From Apoda limacodes (lineage: Eukaryota; Arthropoda; Insecta; Lepidoptera; Limacodidae), in contig OX291562.1 in the NCBI GenBank assembly GCA_946406115.1, forward strand, positions 12,120,001-12,184,000: 64,000 nucleotides of DNA, given 5' to 3'. A program made the position numbers and the translations under genes. Below the pieces are notes generated by a model. The model did not search any database. It was not told the DNA's origin and saw nothing but the letters and a program-made list of their open reading frames with translations. Shown here piece after piece: positions 6,064 to 62,300 of this stretch (position 1 is its first letter; each line of letters begins with the position of its first letter).

Positions 6064-6894
6064 GTTTTGAAAGTTACTTTGTAAATGTGAGATAATGACT
6101 TGACTTCAAATAAAATTTTGCATTTGAAGTCTGCACTTTAGAAAAGTTATCTACCGATTTTAGCTCATACAAGATCAAAGAATGTAAGTTCTAATTTTAA
6201 TTAAAAGCAATTAAGTGATACAATTTAATTTTATCACTTACATTATGTTTATTTTAGGTGTAACAAACATACCAACTAACACATTCACACTTGCATTTAT
6301 AATTCTGTTGGGTTTTTATGTATAGACATAATATGTTTTTGTAGACATATTAGTAGTAGCTATAGAAGTGACTTATTTTTCTAGTGCTTGTTTGTCTAGT
6401 AGTCGTCGCCATAAAAATAACTAAAATTGTTTATGCATACGAGTGTTGTAGCATTGTGCGTCTAAATTCGGCTGAAAATAACAGTCGAGGGTTGTCACTT
6501 ACGTAAAAATAAAAACGCCTTAGCAAATATGGATGTTGTGTTGATGAAAATATGATAAAAAAAATTATACAAAAACAAAAAAAAAAGATAAAGCAATTAA
6601 AATGAATAGATAAAATAAGAACAAAAAAAGGTTAAATAAGTTTTATTATTGAAATAAGGACAATATTAGTATTTATTTACTTTACTGAGTTTTAATAAAA
6701 TATCTATTCCACTTTACTTAACTATAACAAAAACAAAATTCAAATTATAGGACAGAAAAATATTGTGCTATCTTATGCGGAAACGTTAAAACAATATTTT
6801 AAAACAATTCCTGCTTTTAAGGGGATAATATAAAATAATTATATTTTATTCAGCCGAGGTACCTTTGAAGGGGTGGCGATGGTAAAATAAAAAA
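6064..6894. other. 3' flank of the tal gene, no feature recognised
   Basis: Very AT-rich with many A-runs. No gene or dispersed element is recognised. It lies beyond the predicted polyadenylation site of the minus-strand tal gene. Confidence 0.5.
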
Positions 6895-6916
6895 ATATAA
6901 AAGTTTTACATAAAAA

Positions 6917-6922
6917 TTTATT
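6917..6922 (-). terminator. Candidate polyadenylation signal AATAAA of tal
   Basis: This is the first AATAAA met on the minus strand after the last motif ORF; an ATTAAA variant lies earlier at 7302-7307. It is followed within 15-35 nt by T-rich sequence. The choice is inferred, since AATAAA is common in AT-rich DNA. Confidence 0.45.
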
Positions 6923-7314
6923 CAACAATAATTTGCTTCATTAGCAACAATTAGCTAGAGTATTTCTAACAGTCTTATTATTTTACAAGAGTATAATCAC
7001 TGTCATAGTTCAAACGAAATGCAATAGGGTACATAGAAATGAAAATGTACAATTTTATCAAACAGTTGTGAATAAAATGCAACAGACAATTTCATAAAAA
7101 ATCAAAACGTTTTTTATATTAATTAAATCTAATTACAAAAATGGTTAGTCAATAAATAATTACTTACAGTTAAGGTAACTTTAATAAATTAATACGAATA
7201 TATCGTACCTATAGCCTTTTAAACATCAGACTTATAAAAAATCATACGAATGATCGGGCAGGCAACAGCAGTCTTTGGTTCCTATTTACATAATTACAAA
7301 TTTAATTTAAAACA

Positions 7315-7416
7315 TCATTTTAAATTAAATTTCCTCTTTTTCCTATTTGCTGATACTCTATGTCTACTGTGAATTAATCTGTGGCAATGAGATAAACAGC
7401 AATGTACACTCAACAT
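7315..7416 (-). CDS. Candidate basic 33-codon ORF downstream of the LDPTG ORFs
   Basis: It starts at the second AUG after the last LDPTG ORF and encodes 33 residues rich in His, Arg, Lys and Cys. It begins MLSVHCCLSHCHRLIHSR, includes NRKKRK near residues 25-30, and has no LDPTG motif. In Drosophila and Tribolium the polycistronic tal/mlpt mRNA also carries a distal ORF without the motif, which is why this one is listed. I do not recognise the sequence. In AT-rich DNA a 33-codon frame can arise by chance, so translation is unproven. Confidence 0.3.
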   Translation of the reverse strand: MLSVHCCLSHCHRLIHSRHRVSANRKKRKFNLK

Positions 7417-7490: not shown

Positions 7491-7529
7491 TTAGTAGGTT
7501 CCTGTAGGGTCTAACACGGGTTGTGTCAT
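7491..7529 (-). CDS. tal: tal small ORF 8, peptide MTQPVLDPTGTY
   Basis: Twelve codons plus TAA. The peptide MTQPVLDPTGTY ends in LDPTGTY, matching the variant in the Drosophila tal-AA peptide (LDPTGTY). The N-terminal MTQPV is unlike the MF start of the middle copies. The start context is ATCAAAATG, with A at -3. It lies 31 nt after ORF 7 and is the last intact motif ORF of the array. The role is inferred from the family: a cytoplasmic peptide that drives Shavenbaby processing via Ubr3. Confidence 0.92.
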   Translation of the reverse strand: MTQPVLDPTGTY

Positions 7530-7560
7530 TTTGATTTTTATATTATCAATAAAAACAAAA

Positions 7561-7596
7561 TTAATAAATACCCGTTGGATCTAGACTGCACAACAT
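7561..7596 (-). CDS. tal: tal small ORF 7, peptide MLCSLDPTGIY
   Basis: Eleven codons plus TAA. The peptide MLCSLDPTGIY carries the complete LDPTGxY motif with Ile at the variable position, as in ORF 1. The codons differ from its neighbours at most third positions (CTA GAT CCA ACG GGT), consistent with long-standing purifying selection on the peptide. The start context TTTAAAATG has A at -3. It begins 36 nt after ORF 6 and ends 31 nt before ORF 8. Confidence 0.92.
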   Translation of the reverse strand: MLCSLDPTGIY

Positions 7597-7632
7597 TTTA
7601 AAAATATAAAAAAAATTATAAAACAAATAAAT

Positions 7633-7665
7633 CTAATAAACGTTAGTAGGATCAAGTACAAACAT
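7633..7665 (-). CDS. tal: tal small ORF 6, variant peptide MFVLDPTNVY
   Basis: Ten codons plus TAG. The peptide MFVLDPTNVY replaces the near-invariant Gly of LDPTG with Asn (codon AAC). Changing GGN to AAC takes two base substitutions, so a sequencing error is less likely than for a one-base change. The rest of the motif, including the final Tyr, is intact, and the start context TTCAAAATG has A at -3. Whether this copy still works in Ubr3 binding is unknown. It begins 64 nt after ORF 5. Confidence 0.88.
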   Translation of the reverse strand: MFVLDPTNVY

Positions 7666-7729
7666 TTTGAAGAAGATATTTAAAACTAAACAAAAAAAAC
7701 CTAAAGTACTTAACACTTTAATTGTCCTC

Positions 7730-7762
7730 TCAGTACACACCAGTAGGGTCTAAAACGAACAT
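7730..7762 (-). CDS. tal: tal small ORF 5, peptide MFVLDPTGVY
   Basis: Ten codons plus TGA. The peptide MFVLDPTGVY is identical to ORF 4, from which it differs at four nucleotides, all synonymous (TTA/TTG, CCT/CCG, ACT/ACA, GGT/GGA). This suggests a tandem duplication kept under selection for the peptide. The start context ATTAAAATG has A at -3. It begins 31 nt after ORF 4, the same spacer length as between ORFs 3 and 4. Confidence 0.93.
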   Translation of the reverse strand: MFVLDPTGVY

Positions 7763-7793
7763 TTTAATACACTGTTTATCACGAAAATATTTT

Positions 7794-7826
7794 TCAGTAC
7801 ACTCCTGTCGGGTCCAAAACGAACAT
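7794..7826 (-). CDS. tal: tal small ORF 4, peptide MFVLDPTGVY
   Basis: Ten codons plus TGA. The peptide MFVLDPTGVY is identical to that of ORF 5. The start context TTGAAGATG is shared exactly with ORF 3, suggesting the two arose by local duplication including the upstream spacer. LDPTGVY lies directly before the stop, as in all copies. Confidence 0.93.
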   Translation of the reverse strand: MFVLDPTGVY

Positions 7827-7857
7827 CTTCAATGATTTCAGGAACTTATCGTAGAAA

Positions 7858-7890
7858 TTAATAAACACCGGTAGGGTCCAAACTGAACAT
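7858..7890 (-). CDS. tal: tal small ORF 3, peptide MFSLDPTGVY
   Basis: Ten codons plus TAA. The peptide MFSLDPTGVY differs from ORFs 4 and 5 only at residue 3 (Ser for Val). The start context TTGAAGATG is the same as in ORF 4. It begins 58 nt after ORF 2 and is followed by a 31-nt spacer. There is no in-frame upstream ATG before a stop, so the start is unambiguous. Confidence 0.93.
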   Translation of the reverse strand: MFSLDPTGVY

Positions 7891-7948
7891 CTTCAACACT
7901 GTTGATTTTTTCTAAAATCCCAATTTCGAGAAATCAATAAATCCCAAA

Positions 7949-7981
7949 TCAATATACACCTGTAGGATCCAATCCAAACAT
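7949..7981 (-). CDS. tal: tal small ORF 2, peptide MFGLDPTGVY
   Basis: Ten codons plus TGA. The peptide MFGLDPTGVY has Gly at residue 3 and the full LDPTGVY end. The start context GTCATCATG has A at -3. It begins 78 nt after ORF 1, the longest spacer in the array. Reading upstream in frame meets a stop before any other ATG, so the start is clear. Confidence 0.93.
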   Translation of the reverse strand: MFGLDPTGVY

Positions 7982-8059
7982 GATGACACTAAATAAATTG
8001 TTCCAAAAATGATTTAATGGTATTTTCCTCTCTGATGTATTGATTCAATAGTATAATCT

Positions 8060-8098
8060 TCAATAAATGCCAGTGGGATCCAGAACCTTGACTTCCAT
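8060..8098 (-). CDS. tal: tal small ORF 1, peptide MEVKVLDPTGIY
   Basis: Twelve codons plus TGA. The peptide MEVKVLDPTGIY has a longer, charged N-terminus (MEVKV) than the middle copies. It is the first AUG downstream of the predicted start site, with a 117-nt leader containing no other AUG. Its context ATCACCATGG is the best match in the array to an animal initiation consensus. It therefore probably receives most initiation, with later ORFs reached by reinitiation after these very short frames (inference). Confidence 0.93.
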   Translation of the reverse strand: MEVKVLDPTGIY

Positions 8099-8214
8099 GG
8101 TGATAAATTCAATGTTAAATTCGACCAATCGATCTTATTTACGATGAAGTGTGAACGAGAGCGCACAAAATATTGAATAGTTACGTGCAATCGACTCCGA
8201 GTTTGTCTCGCGAC

Positions 8215-8247
8215 TGTGGCTTCGCGCCACGTGCCCCTTTTTTTATA
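8215..8247 (-). promoter_or_regulatory. Predicted core promoter of tal (TATA box and initiator)
   Basis: On the minus strand TATAAAAAAA occupies 8247-8238, and an initiator-like CACAGTC places A+1 at 8215, 32 nt from the first T of the TATA box. That spacing is canonical. An E-box CACGTG at 8228-8233 lies between the two. No AUG occurs before ORF 1. The start site is a prediction from motif spacing, not observed. Confidence 0.65.
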
Positions 8248-8264
8248 CCTGCTCTCGACGCAGC

Positions 8265-8489
8265 CGCGTATTTTTTTGGCGAATCGAATTTGGAAGCTTT
8301 CAGCCGGGTGGTTGTCCGCGCCCCAGCCCTAGCCTAGTATTTTTTTCTTCTTTTTTTGGTGATTTTTTTTAAATACGTGCATATGTCGGCAAGCGATTGT
8401 GTATTTGGTTATAGAAGGCATCGCACTTTATCTAGCGCATTTTTACGCGTTAACCAGTACAACGAAATTGTGCCCGCATAGATATTCGA
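8265..8489. promoter_or_regulatory. Upstream region of tal, proximal
   Basis: This stretch holds a GC-rich patch (GGTTGTCCGCGCCCCAGCCCTAG near 8310-8335, written here in part as CGCGCCCCAGCCC) between T-runs. No ORF or dispersed repeat is recognised, which fits a unique promoter-proximal region. Individual sites cannot be assigned with confidence. Confidence 0.35.
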
Positions 8490-8502
8490 AGGTCATTGAC
8501 TT
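8490..8502. promoter_or_regulatory. Candidate ecdysone-response element (inverted repeat, 1-bp spacer)
   Basis: AGGTCATTGACTT matches the EcR/USP consensus RGKTCANTGAMCY at 12 of 13 positions. It lies about 275 bp upstream of the predicted tal start. CGAAGGTCA overlapping its left half is also close to the Ftz-F1 site YCAAGGYCR. Ecdysone control of pri is established in Drosophila; that this site mediates it here is inferred from one motif. Confidence 0.5.
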
Positions 8503-9258: not shown

Positions 9259-9457
9259 ACTAGCTCTTTTTCGCGGCTCCGCCTGCGATAGTAGCTATAT
9301 GAATTCGGTTGTAGATAACTTTGTAAACTTTTGAATATTCCAAAACAAAATGAAGCGTATAAACTATCTTCATTCCAAATTTCAGCCGAAACGGTTTAGT
9401 TGTTGTATGGTGAAGGATCAATATACTCACAACATTTCGTTTGTATTATATTAGTAG
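9259..9457 (-). mobile_element. 'ACTAATATT...AGCTAGT' dispersed element
   Basis: Read on the minus strand it begins near TACTAATATAATAC and ends AGCTAGT (ACTAGCT at 9259-9265 on plus). It keeps the marker block for '...ACCGTTTCGGCTGAAATTTGG' (here AATTTCAGCCGAAACGG on plus). This is a common non-coding repeat of lepidopteran genomes; the element class is unsettled to me. Confidence 0.6.
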
Positions 9458-33997: not shown

Positions 33998-34590
33998 ACG
34001 AAAAACATTTTATTTGATCGTCGGACACAAGACGCAAAGGCTGTCAAACATTTTGGCCAATGTTCTACATTCCGAGTTTTAACGGCTCGCAGAATATATT
34101 TTGTTTCGTCTTCAGACTAGAGAAGCCACGGCTGTCAAATATTTTGGCCAGTGTTTTTCATTCCGGTTTTTAACGGTCCGCAGAATATTTTGATTGCTCA
34201 TCGGACAAGAGAAGCTACGGCTCTCAAACATTTAGGCCAGTGTTTTTCATTCCGGTTTTTAACGGCCCGCAGAATATATTTTGGTTGGTCTTCAGACTAG
34301 AGAAGCCACGGCTGTCAAACATTTTGGCACGTGCTACACATTCTAATTTCTACCGGTCAGCGAAATAGAATTTCTTTAGTTGTCGGACACAAGACGACAT
34401 AGCTGTCAAACATTTTGGCCAGTTTTCTTTATTCCGATTTCTACTGCGGTCTGCGAAATATGTTTTATTTGGTCTTCGGACACAAGAAACCCCACGGCTG
34501 TCAAACATTTGGGCAAATGTTCTACTTTCCAATTTCTACCGGTCAGCTTAATATATTTTCTTTAGTTATCTGCTGTCAAACATTTTGCTT
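33998..34590. repeat. Satellite-like tandem array, ~91-bp unit, about 6.3 copies
   Basis: Each unit carries CGGACACAAGA, a GGCTGTCAAACATTTTGGCC core, a CTACATTCCGATTT-type stretch and CGCAGAATATATTTTG. Units begin near 34021, 34112, 34202, 34293, 34384 and 34477, with a partial at 34568. Copies differ by 10-25 percent. Open frames on both strands are products of the periodicity. Confidence 0.88.
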
Positions 34591-36690: not shown

Positions 36691-36702
36691 TGCCGGCATA
36701 CA

Positions 36703-37104
36703 ATAGTTACTATTTGTAAAACTACAAACTACAATGATTACTTTTTGTTAAACTACAAACTACAATGATTACTCGTGTAAAAATACAAACTACAATAGTT
36801 ACTCTTTGTAAAACTACAAACTACAATAGTTACTTTTTGTAAAACTACAAACTACGATAGTTACTCTTTGTAAAACTACAAACTACAATAATTACTCTTT
36901 GTAAAACTACAAACTACAATAATTACTCTTTGTAAAACTACAAACTACGATAGTTATGTTTTGTAAAACTACAATCTACAATAGTTACTTTTTGTAAAAC
37001 TACAAACTACAATAGTTACTTTTTGTAAAACTACAAACTACAATAGTTACTCTTTGTAAAACTAAAATCTACAATAGTTACTCTTTGTAAAACTAAAAAC
37101 GAAA
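36703..37104. repeat. Minisatellite, 31-bp unit, about 12-13 copies
   Basis: The unit is AACTACAAACTACAATAGTT plus ACTCTTTGTAA. The start ACTACAAACTACAAT recurs at 36721, 36752 and so on at 31-bp spacing. Copies are highly similar, with the most variation at the ends, as expected of a young array. Confidence 0.95.
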
Positions 37105-51820: not shown

Positions 51821-53556
51821 ACACTTAAAAAGTTGAAAAATGCCCTCCCTATCATAGAAGGACACTTTCCATTACAAACATACAAAACATGAAATGCAGA
51901 AGCACAACATAAAAAAGTATCTTATTATAAAATATATAAAAAAAAAAGAGAGTTTATGTATTCATCACTAATTATCAATGTCTTACAGTATTGATAAACA
52001 AAACAAAAAAGTAAAACTAAATACAAGGATACAAAGAAGTTTGCAAGAGCAGACCAGCCTCCACAGGCGGCACCCGTTCACGAATTGGGTTGAGTGAAAG
52101 AAACATTTTCCCTATCTCAATTCAATGTATTGAAACCTACCTTAAACTTTTTACAACACTGTTCACATACAACACCGTCCAGTAGAATTTGTGCATACAA
52201 ACAGAGCTGTGACATAAAAACGGATAGACAGACATTACATTCGCATTTACCATTTGGCTGAGGATCCCAAAAACGCAATGGTTTCCACGAAAGCGTTAGA
52301 TAATGTCAGTTACTAAAATATGCGGTCAGCAGTTTCAATTGAAAACATCGTATGTGACCTCATAATCCAAACGTAACGCGTTTCCCTCGTCAAACACGAC
52401 TATCGTAAGCACAATCTTATGTGGCATTGCATTTTAATGCCCGCATAAAAAACTAACTGTCCAAATAAATGCCAGCAAAATGTGAAGGTAGGTCAGCAAA
52501 CGGTACCGACAATGAACTTCGTATAACTGGCACAATGACCGGTAATTTTGGCGGTTCATACGCGTGGTAAAAAAAAAAAAAACTTGCTGTCGAATGTACC
52601 AGGGGACAATGAGTAAGAGAAAGGTTGTTTTAGGTTAAGTGAAAGGCGATTTTTTTTTTTCGTAGGTGGGGATTTCGGTTGGCGTTTGTATGGTGTGCAG
52701 TGAAAGCTCTTTGGTCTTTGCACTGCCAAATAAGAAAAGAAAACAGATAGAACCGACAAATGTTTTCTTTCTAATGTTTAAAGTCAAACGAATGTAGGTC
52801 AAGTTTTAAGAGAGATGAATAATCGAGTTACTTTCCTCTTACCTTTCTTGAAAGTACCGTTGGAATAGAAAATTATCTTCTCGGAATTGTTCTCTATATT
52901 ATCAAATAATGTTAACTATTGTTTTTTAATTAATTTTCTAGCAATAAAAATACTAACGTAAATGTTATGGTTTTAATAAGTCGTTATTATTTTCTTATAT
53001 CTTTTTAAGTTTCGTTTCTAGTGTTCCGTGTTCGAAATGGCAAGAGGAATCAACTTGGATTTTTTTTATTTATTTTTTTAAATTGGTTGATTATGATAAT
53101 TTGTAGATTGTGATAATACTACGGAACAAACGCGCGTTGTTGTAAATTTAGATTTTTACTTTTGATAATGTAATTTTATCTAAAAGATAAAAAAAAAAAG
53201 ATAACCTGAAAATAAGGAAAACAAAAAAAAGGTCAAATTAATTAAATAAAAATAAAATAAAACAAAAATCTTCAAAGATATTTGCCTCAAATAAAAAACT
53301 GTGAAATACAGATATATGAATCTATTTTATTTATTTGAAAATAATCTGTGGGGTATCAAAGATTAACATAATGTCGGTATCCTCAGGGAACAAAACAGAA
53401 AACATCTTCATTCAATTAGTGTGAACCAATGCTAACAGTCTCACTAGTAGCTCGCACTTGGCTGTTTTGTTTTTCATTTTTATCAATTTGTTTTTCTAAT
53501 TAGAGTTTGCTCTTTAATTAGTAATAATTTTAAAAACAGAATAAAAAAATGGATAA
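51821..53556. other. Unassigned DNA
   Basis: A short CATTTACCATTTGGCTGAGG terminus-like fragment is at about 52248. No gene; frames at 52556-52759 and 53514-53717 are low-complexity products. Confidence 0.45.
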
Positions 53557-54030
53557 TTGCACCTCCTCTCCCTAAAAATAAAACAAAAACTAGATACAAA
53601 CTGCACCTCCTCTCCGCAAAAAAAAACTAGATACATATTGCACCTCCTCTTCTTGAAAATAAATAACGAAATACATTTTGCACCACTTCTCCCCGATATT
53701 AAAAAAACTAGACACATATTGCAGCTCCCCTCGCCGAAAATAAATAACTAAATAAATATTGCACCTCCTCTACCCAAAAATAGAAAAAAAACTAGATTCA
53801 TATTGTTCCCCTTCTTCCCAAAAATAATTAACTAGATAAATATTGCACCTTCTCTCCCCGAAAATAAAAAAAAAAACTAGATACATAGTGCATCTCCTCA
53901 CCCCGATAATAACAAACTAGAGAGGTATATATTGCATCTCCTCTCCCCGAAAATAAAAATCTAAACACATATTGCACCTCCCCTCCTCGAAAATTACTAG
54001 ATACATATTGCCCCTCCTCTCACCGAAAAT
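53557..54030. repeat. Minisatellite, about 42-bp unit, about 12 copies
   Basis: The unit is TTGCACCTCCTCTCCCCGAA plus an AATAAA-rich linker and ACTAGATACATA. CACCTCCTCT-type blocks recur from 53560 to 54010 at intervals of 34-46 bp, with variable linker A-runs. Frames across it on both strands are not genes. Confidence 0.93.
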
Positions 54031-54097
54031 ATTGAAGTAAATGTTATTGAGTGCAGAATACACGAAACATATATCAATGCTAACTTTCTTCATACAT

Positions 54098-59712: not shown

Positions 59713-61138
59713 ACGAGCTTTACTAAAAACTCACTTAGGAATTGTCGCAGCTACATTGATTGATATCAGAGCCACGGTCCCACCATGTATGACGATGGAA
59801 GCCACGTGCTTGAACTCGTGACTGTTAAACGTTACTTATGCAACGATTTGACACGTTCGTCGTCTCGTCGCGAAGCCTATTTCAAGGTGAACTAGCCCTT
59901 GGTACAGCACTTTGACTTCTATCAACTTATGTTTGCCTAGTAATTCATACATAGGAATACCGTTATATAAATGATTTTAGATTGATTGATTGATTGGGTT
60001 TCGTCATCGATTTACTGATTCAATTCATCAAAAATATATTACTTAGCTATGAAATATAAATATTGGAGTGGTCTTGTAGACTGGTTTATTTTCTTTTTTC
60101 TTTTGTGGATATCGAATAGAAAAAGTTTTATGGTTTCGTAGCCAAATGACAAAAACGAACCCTTTCTCTTATAGTTTCTTCCCGTCGCAAAAAATAATAA
60201 CAAACACGTGTTCGCTATTAAATATTGTATGTCAGTATATAGGTATAGATAGCACAAACGCATTTAGCAGTCTAGTTACCCATAGATCCCCGTGGCCAGC
60301 GATATTTTTTTACTTTAATAACTGATATTGCAACCAATATATAAACAATTAAAACTAATGTCTTTTATTATCTCTAATGGAATTAATGGAATATGCATAT
60401 CTGGATCTTTCAGATACCTAACTGATACGTTAGGGAAATTCATATCTTTTAAATAGCATTTGCCCGCGGCTCCACCCGCGATAAAATCTGCTATCATCGT
60501 GGGATTCCTTCGGCAAATCATTGACTTTAGAAAATAAATAGGCGATTTCTGCAGTGAGAACTTTTAAATTTTAAGAAAATAGGATTCGGAGCGCCTCTCA
60601 GCGTGCTTCATACTAATGAATTTCACACTAATTTTTGACACTTGCTGATCAAACACCACGAAACTTTGAATACATGTTCTAGTAATAAATGTCTAGGTAT
60701 GCAGTGTGCCAGTTTTCTGATTAATTTTATAGTTCAAAATGTATACAGGATATTAGTTTTTCATACAAATAGTTTCAAAAAAGATTTTTAGTTAATAAAA
60801 ACACTTTACAATGTTTTGGAAAACTACAGACATAGGTATTCGGCTTGGGATTATGACTAAAAAAATTTCAAAAAAAATTATTGATTAGTAAATGTCAAAA
60901 CCAAATGGAAAATCCGTTTGTACGAAACCCGCTGCGCCGCGAATCGTATCCTCTTAAGCAATCTTTGTTTCAAATTGTAGCCTTCGCTTTAGTTGTTCTA
61001 AACATATCGTAACATACTAACACACACACTCGTAAACTTTCTTATTTATTTATTTTGGATTTTATGTTATGCTGATTCCCAGCATTGACGAATTAATCTA
61101 TGCTACTATCAGAAAGAGGTAAAATTTGTCTGTCTGTT
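59713..61138. other. Unassigned DNA with small repeat scraps
   Basis: TTGCCCGCGGCTCCACCCGC at about 60461 is an 'AGCTAGT'-type terminus scrap. Minus frames at 60039-60263 and 60315-60521 show no domain. No gene. Confidence 0.45.
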
Positions 61139-62300
61139 TATTTACATGTAGCCTGGAATAAGCGAAGGCGTTCGATCGGGTCTGGCACCGGGGTCATCTA
61201 TCAAAGTTGCCATCTTACGGAGTGCCCGAGGGTTTGTGCAAATGGGTGGCTAGCTTTTTGTCCGGCAGACGCATACGAGCCGTAGTTGACGGTAGTTGCT
61301 CTGATAGCATGGACATCAATGCTGGGTCCCACAAGGCTCTGTGCTGTCTTCTACGCTGTTTCTACTGCATATAAATGACATGTTGAATATGAACAACATA
61401 CATTGATATGCAAATGACAGTACTAGAGACGCTTTTTACACGGGTCGTGCAAACATCACTCGTCCCGTTGTGGAGGAATAGCGTGGAGAACTTGTGTCTC
61501 AAATGGAGACCACTCTGTCCAAAGTCTCTGCCAGGGGACGGAAAATCTTGGTCCGATTCAACCCTACAAAGACACAAGTCTGCGCGTTCACCGCTAAGAA
61601 AACCACATTTACAGTCCCACAATTCCAGAACACACCCCTCTCCATCTCTAAGAGAATTGGGATCCTTGGTTTGCAATTCTGAGATCATTTGCAAGACAAG
61701 GTGAAGCTGGCGTCTAAAAAACTTGGTGTCCTCAACAGAGCGAAGCAGTACTTCACGTTGGAACAAAGGTTGCTGCTTTACAAGTCGCAAGTTCGATCCC
61801 ATATGGAGTACTGCTGCCATCTCTGAGCGGGTGCATCCGCATACCAGCTTGGCCCTTTTGACTCGGTTCAAAGACGGGCTGTGACAATTGTCGACGATCC
61901 CATACTCACTTGCCGTTTCGAGCCCTTAAGTCTGAGGAGAGACTTTGCCTCCCTGTGTGTATTCTATCGCTTGTACAATGGTATGTGATACCCACAGCTA
62001 CTTTCTGCCATCACACCGCTCGCCATCGGCAGGAAATTCTTTCTCACACTTTAGAACCGATATGGTCGCGTACAGTACGGTTTTGGAGAAACTACCTCTC
62101 GCAAACGCTTGGGTTGCTGAATGAGCTCCCTATTAAGGTTTTCTCTAAGGACTACAGTATGGAATTATTCAAGAAAGATGTTATTCGATTTTTGAAGGGT
62201 CGGCAACGCGCGAGTGATGCCCCAGGTGTTGCACGCGTCCTTTGACTACGGTTACCGCTTACCATTAGGCGGACCGTAAACTTGTTTGGTATAAAAAAAA
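61139..62300 (+). pseudogene. Jockey/CR1-like LINE, truncated and frameshifted reverse transcriptase
   Basis: The largest mobile element here, about 1.16 kb. From 61162 a frame reads AKAFDRVWHRG, a reverse transcriptase block with the first catalytic Asp. It continues through a fingers/palm region to INAG. A one-base loss shifts the following PQGSVLS block to another frame. The second catalytic motif, normally YADD, reads YAND and is preceded by a stop. A third part (61494-61682) reads NPTKTQVCAFTAKKT and ends in a stop. A C-terminal part (61910-62245) includes FLKGRQRASDAPGV. The 3' end has CCATTAGGCGGACCGTAAAC and an A-run. The 5' half (endonuclease and ORF1) is missing. In life such elements copy by target-primed reverse transcription; this copy cannot. 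The 169-codon minus frame across it is antisense. Confidence 0.88.

Follow-up and report, generated by a model that had tools for sequence, protein, structure and literature searches.

Eight small ORFs on the minus strand

The window, meaning the whole 64-kb stretch of DNA analyzed here (C25:12120001-12184000), carries eight short open reading frames (ORFs) in tandem on its minus strand, between positions 7491 and 8098. Each ends in LDPT(G/N)xY directly before the stop codon, which confirms the arrangement and coordinates given in the original prediction. In order, the ORFs encode 12, 10, 10, 10, 10, 10, 11, and 12 amino acids (aa), and all three reading frames are occupied. The series begins with sORF 1 (8060 to 8098; MEVKVLDPTGIY), whose ATG, in the context CACCATGG, is the first past a predicted TATA box. 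It continues with sORF 2 (7949 to 7981; MFGLDPTGVY), sORF 3 (7858 to 7890; MFSLDPTGVY), sORF 4 (7794 to 7826) and sORF 5 (7730 to 7762), both MFVLDPTGVY, sORF 6 (7633 to 7665; MFVLDPTNVY, a Gly-to-Asn variant), sORF 7 (7561 to 7596; MLCSLDPTGIY), and sORF 8 (7491 to 7529; MTQPVLDPTGTY). Seven of the motifs are LDPTGxY, the short-ORF hallmark of the tal/pri/mlpt family, and one is LDPTNVY. The LDPT..Y-stop pattern occurred eight times in the window and not once in 60 dinucleotide shuffles of its whole length.

Comparison of the eight motifs (28 ORF pairs) gave a pS of 0.91, which places silent sites near saturation, and a pN of 0.10. Amino acid differences per pair numbered 0.86, compared with 3.9 expected when the same number of nucleotide changes is placed at random, and 24 of the 28 pairs reached p<0.01 in this test. 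Because silent sites are nearly saturated and replacement sites are not, it is the peptides that are conserved and not the DNA. Judged from this substitution pattern, selection is acting on the peptide sequence of the eight ORFs, and we infer that they are translated. ORFs 2 to 5 have 25 to 29 of 33 nt in common. We considered whether entire units of ORF plus spacer had recently been duplicated in tandem and rejected this, as 30-nt flanks, compared pairwise, never reached p<0.02; with no similar flanks between units, the likeness is confined to the ORFs.

The stretch that runs from the TATA box through ORF 8 has no ATG besides the eight ORF starts, all of which (8/8) have an A at position -3. 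The spacers, which total 449 nt and are 31 nt at their shortest, contain no ATG, compared with a mean of 6.7 in shuffles, and none of 5,000 shuffles was ATG free. By a gentler control, 0.6% of contiguous 449-nt stretches on the minus strand are ATG free; by another, the whole 728-nt leader has 8 ATGs versus 14.2 in shuffles (p = 0.023).

The predicted TATA box (TATAAA; 8242 to 8247, minus strand) starts at 8247, 149 nt before the first ATG (8098). An initiator-like CAGT follows on the same strand at 8216 to 8213, its A at 8215 lying 32 nt past the TATA start and 117 nt before the first ATG. The window holds 15 TATA/CA(G/T)T pairs of such spacing; thus, the pair at 8247/8215 is weak alone and only places the start. 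The first AATAAA after the ORFs (6917 to 6922, minus strand) marks the predicted 3' end, and more of these signals start at 6850, 6677, and 6647. A promoter of its own near 8215 and a 3' end near 6900 would give the locus an mRNA of ~1.3 kb. The single polycistronic mRNA of tal/pri/mlpt is described as about 1.5 kb long (PMC11475943).

A candidate ecdysone response element of the IR-1 type (AGGTCATTGACTT; 8490 to 8502, no strand assigned), with one mismatch, lies ~275 nt upstream of the predicted start. The consensus behind this site is what we take to be that of IR-1, and the search was made only after the promoter had been read. A strict search of the 64 kb found one site versus 0.07 expected, with 6 of 100 shuffles having at least one, while a looser consensus with at most one mismatch gave two in the window versus 1.19 expected, which is near chance. 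In Drosophila, EcR is described as directly controlling the pri enhancers, which are remote (PMC8435736).

A second motif cluster downstream

Motif searches covered the 800-Mb genome (31 contigs), and the resulting pattern counts may be lower bounds. LDPTGxY followed by TAA or TGA gave at least 11 matches, all on the minus strand of C25 in two clusters, with none in the reversed control. These 11 comprise seven of the eight ORFs in the window and four matches at 12098366-12098553. The broader LDPTxxY-stop pattern gave at least 29 matches, of which 8 lie in the window, 5 in the second cluster (cluster 2), and 16 singly elsewhere; as the reversed control gave 22, the scattered singles do not point to a third cluster. 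Scanned locally, 301 kb of C25 yielded exactly 13 LDPTxxY-stop matches, all in the two clusters. The short motif without the stop occurred genome-wide at 90 places versus 88 in the control, which is chance level; thus, the evidence rests on stop context and clustering. Look-alikes in three viral contigs (L001, L002, and L003), each a 10-aa ORF reading M(N/I)YFDPTGPY, were rejected because they are not LDPT; they came from a looser pattern, and a stricter one had no match in the viral contigs.

Cluster 2 (C25:12098568-12098206, minus strand) lies ~29 kb downstream of the window cluster, outside the window, and was missed by the original prediction. Its five motif ORFs are intact and encode, in order, MDILTLDPTGLY, MEQTLDPTGQY, MASVKSLDPTGLY, MDKVLDPTGQY, and MIGLDPTEIY, that is, four LDPTGxY peptides (LDPTGLY/LDPTGQY) and one LDPTEIY. 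They are followed by a 23-aa ORF and a 30-aa ORF that overlap each other. A TATA-like box stands 137 nt before the first ATG. Two ATGs lie upstream of the box; between the box and the final motif ORF, the ORF starts are the only ones. One exact loose-consensus IR-1 site (12097626-12097638), the sole exact one in 101 kb, lies 3' of the ORFs.

DNA matches joining the two clusters were examined and rejected, since they occur only away from the ORFs and recur like repeats. Given no nonrepeat DNA similarity between the clusters, their split is taken to be old or fast, and duplication is argued from the peptides and the layout.

A candidate C-terminal peptide

The tal/pri/mlpt family is described, in a paper on Clogmia tal, as having LDPTGXY peptides plus one C-terminal peptide with the consensus GREETSSCRRRR (PMC6124123). 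The window locus has a candidate for a diverged form of this peptide that the original prediction did not include. ORF 9 (7315 to 7416, minus strand; MLSVHCCLSHCHRLIHSRHRVSANRKKRKFNLK) encodes 33 aa with nine K/R and no D/E, a basicity reached by 6 of the 320 ATG-started ORFs of 25 to 45 aa in the window, ORF 9 included. It begins 74 nt beyond ORF 8, with a four-codon ATG ORF (7452-7438) in between. At its end (7298-7332), two 15-nt arms made up of A and T form a perfect inverted repeat around a 5-nt loop.

The consensus was scanned against 90,716 stop-free 12-residue stretches from six frames of 101 kb. By far the top match was the 30-aa ORF of cluster 2 (RPEETSSCRKRR; score 45, 9/12 identical), compared with 25 for the runner-up, and this final peptide of cluster 2 bears PEETSSCRKRR. 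ORF 9 (SRHRVSANRKKR) is identical to the consensus at 4 of 12 positions and scored 21, ranking 12th of 90,716 with ties at 21; it is the best match inside the predicted transcript of the window. Thus, in this 101-kb scan, cluster 2 carries the C-terminal consensus GREETSSCRRRR and the window locus does not. As ORF 9 resembles the C-terminal peptide only weakly, the window locus misses one published hallmark.

Aligned directly, ORF 9 and the 30-aa peptide of cluster 2 scored 31 (shuffle p of 0.006 to 0.007), which ranked 2nd of 319 small ORFs in the window and, in reverse, 3rd of 186 small ORFs in the neighborhood. The 23-aa ORF of cluster 2 did not match ORF 9 (p of 0.64 to 0.72), and a PDB search with ORF 9 retrieved nothing. 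We regard ORF 9 as a likely, if unproven, much-diverged C-terminal peptide.

Surroundings of the clusters

At curated cutoffs, Pfam retrieved no match for ORF 9 or for the 27 ORFs searched from a set of 151 in the window (stop to stop, ≥60 aa). Within the 27 ORFs covered, this agrees with the claim that the window has no other host gene; small exons of an intron-rich gene may still be present. One ORF of >100 aa (8017-8328, minus strand), out of frame with sORF 1 but overlapping both it and the promoter, lies outside the Pfam set. A subthreshold match to a reverse transcriptase (RVT_1; E = 0.004) was found at 61162-61371. Broken pieces of a LINE-type retrotransposon occupy 61097-62245 on the plus strand, with fuller relatives at C25 12055-12060 and 12198-12201 kb. 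Rfam at gathering thresholds found nothing in the window, and neither did a Sigma-70/terminator scan, which is not meaningful for an insect.

At 9259-9455 (minus strand), ~1 kb upstream of the gene, is a remnant like what we take to be a common moth repeat ending GCAGGCGGAGCCGCG...AGCTAGT; similar ends occur at 2.7, 13.3, 41.1, and 57.0 kb. Together with the chromosome-size range of the 31 contigs, such remnants make a lepidopteran origin plausible, if unproven. Satellite-like tandem arrays are found at 36699-37100 (31-nt units), 34007-34563 (91 nt), and 53556-54031 (about 40/84 nt). Across 301 kb of C25, the ORFs of ≥160 aa, judged by eye, comprise retrotransposon pieces, a group of leucine-rich-repeat proteins (11988-12020 kb), frames antisense to both, and a few without assignment (e.g., 12267452-12267952). 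Four long tandem leucine-rich-repeat-like ORFs, several of them closely alike, make up C25:11988459-12019919 (L016-L019), ~78 kb from cluster 2. A large regulatory region has been described for pri (PMC8435736), and the scarcity of genes in this setting is in keeping with it.

A probable pair of tandem genes of the tal/pri/mlpt family

The identification of a tal/pri/mlpt-type polycistronic small-ORF locus is supported by the eight LDPT(G/N)xY-stop ORFs and by conservation at the peptide level. Its designation as the lepidopteran orthologue is not, as cluster 2, with LDPTGQY/LDPTGLY and the C-terminal consensus, is the better match. Because cluster 2 carries that consensus, we regard it as the standard tal/mlpt gene and the window gene as a diverged copy; lacking the consensus, the window locus is called a diverged family-like paralogue and not an orthologue. 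We put at roughly 75% the probability that the window holds a second, complete gene of the tal/pri/mlpt type, which arose by an old tandem duplication and then expanded to eight motif ORFs, with the standard gene ~29 kb downstream. The expectation that eight single-motif ORFs exceed the Drosophila set is borne out, with Drosophila pri having four smORFs.

It is unlikely, by our estimate, that both clusters belong to a single tal/mlpt gene, the window cluster lying upstream and serving the cluster 2 transcription unit as an alternative 5' portion via splicing over ~29 kb or via alternative promoters. The clusters do lie on one strand, 29 kb apart, with the window cluster upstream, and no long host ORF was recognized between them (ORF lists judged by eye, the Pfam run being confined to the window). 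However, each has its own TATA-like box, that of cluster 2 lying 137 nt before its first ATG, and the window cluster has its own AATAAA as well. Cluster 2 would provide the clear C-terminal peptide that the window cluster does not have, but the window cluster has the basic ORF 9 in the right place, and with eight complete ORFs ahead of them, the five of cluster 2 should be translated less readily.

The reverse assignment implied by the original prediction, which makes cluster 2 the lesser copy and gives the role of functional tal orthologue to the window locus, appears very improbable. The window locus has the larger number of motif ORFs and clean ATG use, but the motif ORFs of cluster 2 are all intact (5/5) with ATG use that is also clean, and cluster 2 has both published hallmarks, the C-terminal consensus included, in addition to LDPTGQY. 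The original prediction had named, as grounds for abandoning it, silence of this locus combined with a confident tal orthologue at another place in the same genome; cluster 2 supplies the orthologue, which is half of that pair. Least likely of all is a locus devoid of function, be it a duplicate that is silent or decaying or a set of chance repeats. The LDPTNVY variant could be a mark of early decay, as could the weakness of the C-terminal peptide, yet none of the eight ORFs has lost its start, stop, or motif despite silent sites near saturation, the spacers are ATG free, and motif plus stop appeared 0 times in 60 shuffles.

Proposed function and significance

Drosophila pri encodes four smORF peptides, which act also on Ken (PMC10857433). 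Pri peptides activate Ubr3, upon which Svb is trimmed from repressor to activator (PMC6428570, PMC10857433). By analogy, the window locus probably acts through Ubr3 on Shavenbaby. Its transcription would be pulsed by ecdysone, and ribosomes would translate its ORFs successively by scanning and reinitiation. The 10- to 12-aa peptides would, by their likeness to those of Drosophila pri, bind and activate Ubr3, and the proteasome would then trim Shavenbaby from repressor to activator; alternatively, other Ubr3 clients, such as Ken, would be stabilized. The shortest spacers in the window, at 31 nt, are tight for textbook reinitiation, which counts against this mode of translation, and the motif-ORF spacers of cluster 2 are tighter still (12, 6, 32, and 7 nt). 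An exact back-translation of a presumed Svb N terminus had no match, which an intron or an incorrect query sequence could explain.

Over the standard gene, the most likely gain would be dosage (eight peptides per mRNA) together with separate timing or tissue, and the changed x residue of LDPTGxY (V/I/T in place of L/Q) is a possible specialization. We suggest, tentatively and as something we would not yet bet on, that there are two tandem mlpt genes with labor divided between an ordinary gene and an eight-peptide amplifier. Under ecdysone, the amplifier would have its own dose, timing, or choice of Ubr3 client through V/I-type peptides and a lost or altered C-terminal peptide, with the LDPTN and LDPTE variants as tuners or weak competitors; the lineage concerned would probably be moths.

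Among genes that encode nothing but micropeptides, tal/mlpt is the textbook example. If the second, expanded copy is real, the contributions of peptide copy number, the x residue, and the C-terminal peptide become separable within one genome. It would also be a warning that micropeptide genes, easily missed in ordinary annotation, may be duplicated without notice and that knockdown of one tal/mlpt copy may miss the other.

Comparison with known systems

The window cluster has in common with the insect tal/pri/mlpt genes (Drosophila tal/pri, Tribolium mlpt, Clogmia Ca-tal, and Bombyx tal) a compact polycistronic run of LDPTGxY ORFs. Its ORFs of 10 to 12 aa, the longer basic ORF that comes after them, and the gene-poor surroundings are likewise as in these genes. 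Unlike them, it is accompanied by a second cluster in the same genome and has eight single-motif ORFs; the fourth smORF of Drosophila pri has two motif repeats (PMC6124123). The x residue is V, I, or T in the window, whereas it is Q or L in the known genes and in cluster 2, LDPTGQY being the form given for Drosophila. The window locus further differs in having one LDPTN variant and a candidate C-terminal peptide without the GREETSSCRRRR consensus. With cluster 2 it shares strand, a similar layout, a TATA-like box, and the order of motif ORFs followed by a C-terminal ORF; in contrast, cluster 2 has five motif ORFs, LDPTGLY/QY with one LDPTEIY, the published C-terminal consensus, and tighter spacers.

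Bombyx tal was reportedly the subject of a 2017 study by Cao et al. The known Bombyx gene may correspond to either of the two copies. The Clogmia tal paper names a Bombyx homologue in a figure legend, with no details (PMC6124123). Three papers contain no mention of duplication (PMC6428570, PMC6124123, PMC8435736), and a fourth mentions it only as genome duplication and in a cited Diptera paper (PMC7606980). These four papers are too narrow a basis for claiming that a second mlpt gene is missing from the literature, and its novelty is therefore provisional. A further comparison is offered by hemipteran mlpt, which has an extra ~80-aa smHemiptera ORF (PMC11475943, PMC7606980). Both cases represent a lineage-specific change to mlpt; in Hemiptera, as described there, the single gene acquired an additional peptide, whereas here a second motif cluster is present.
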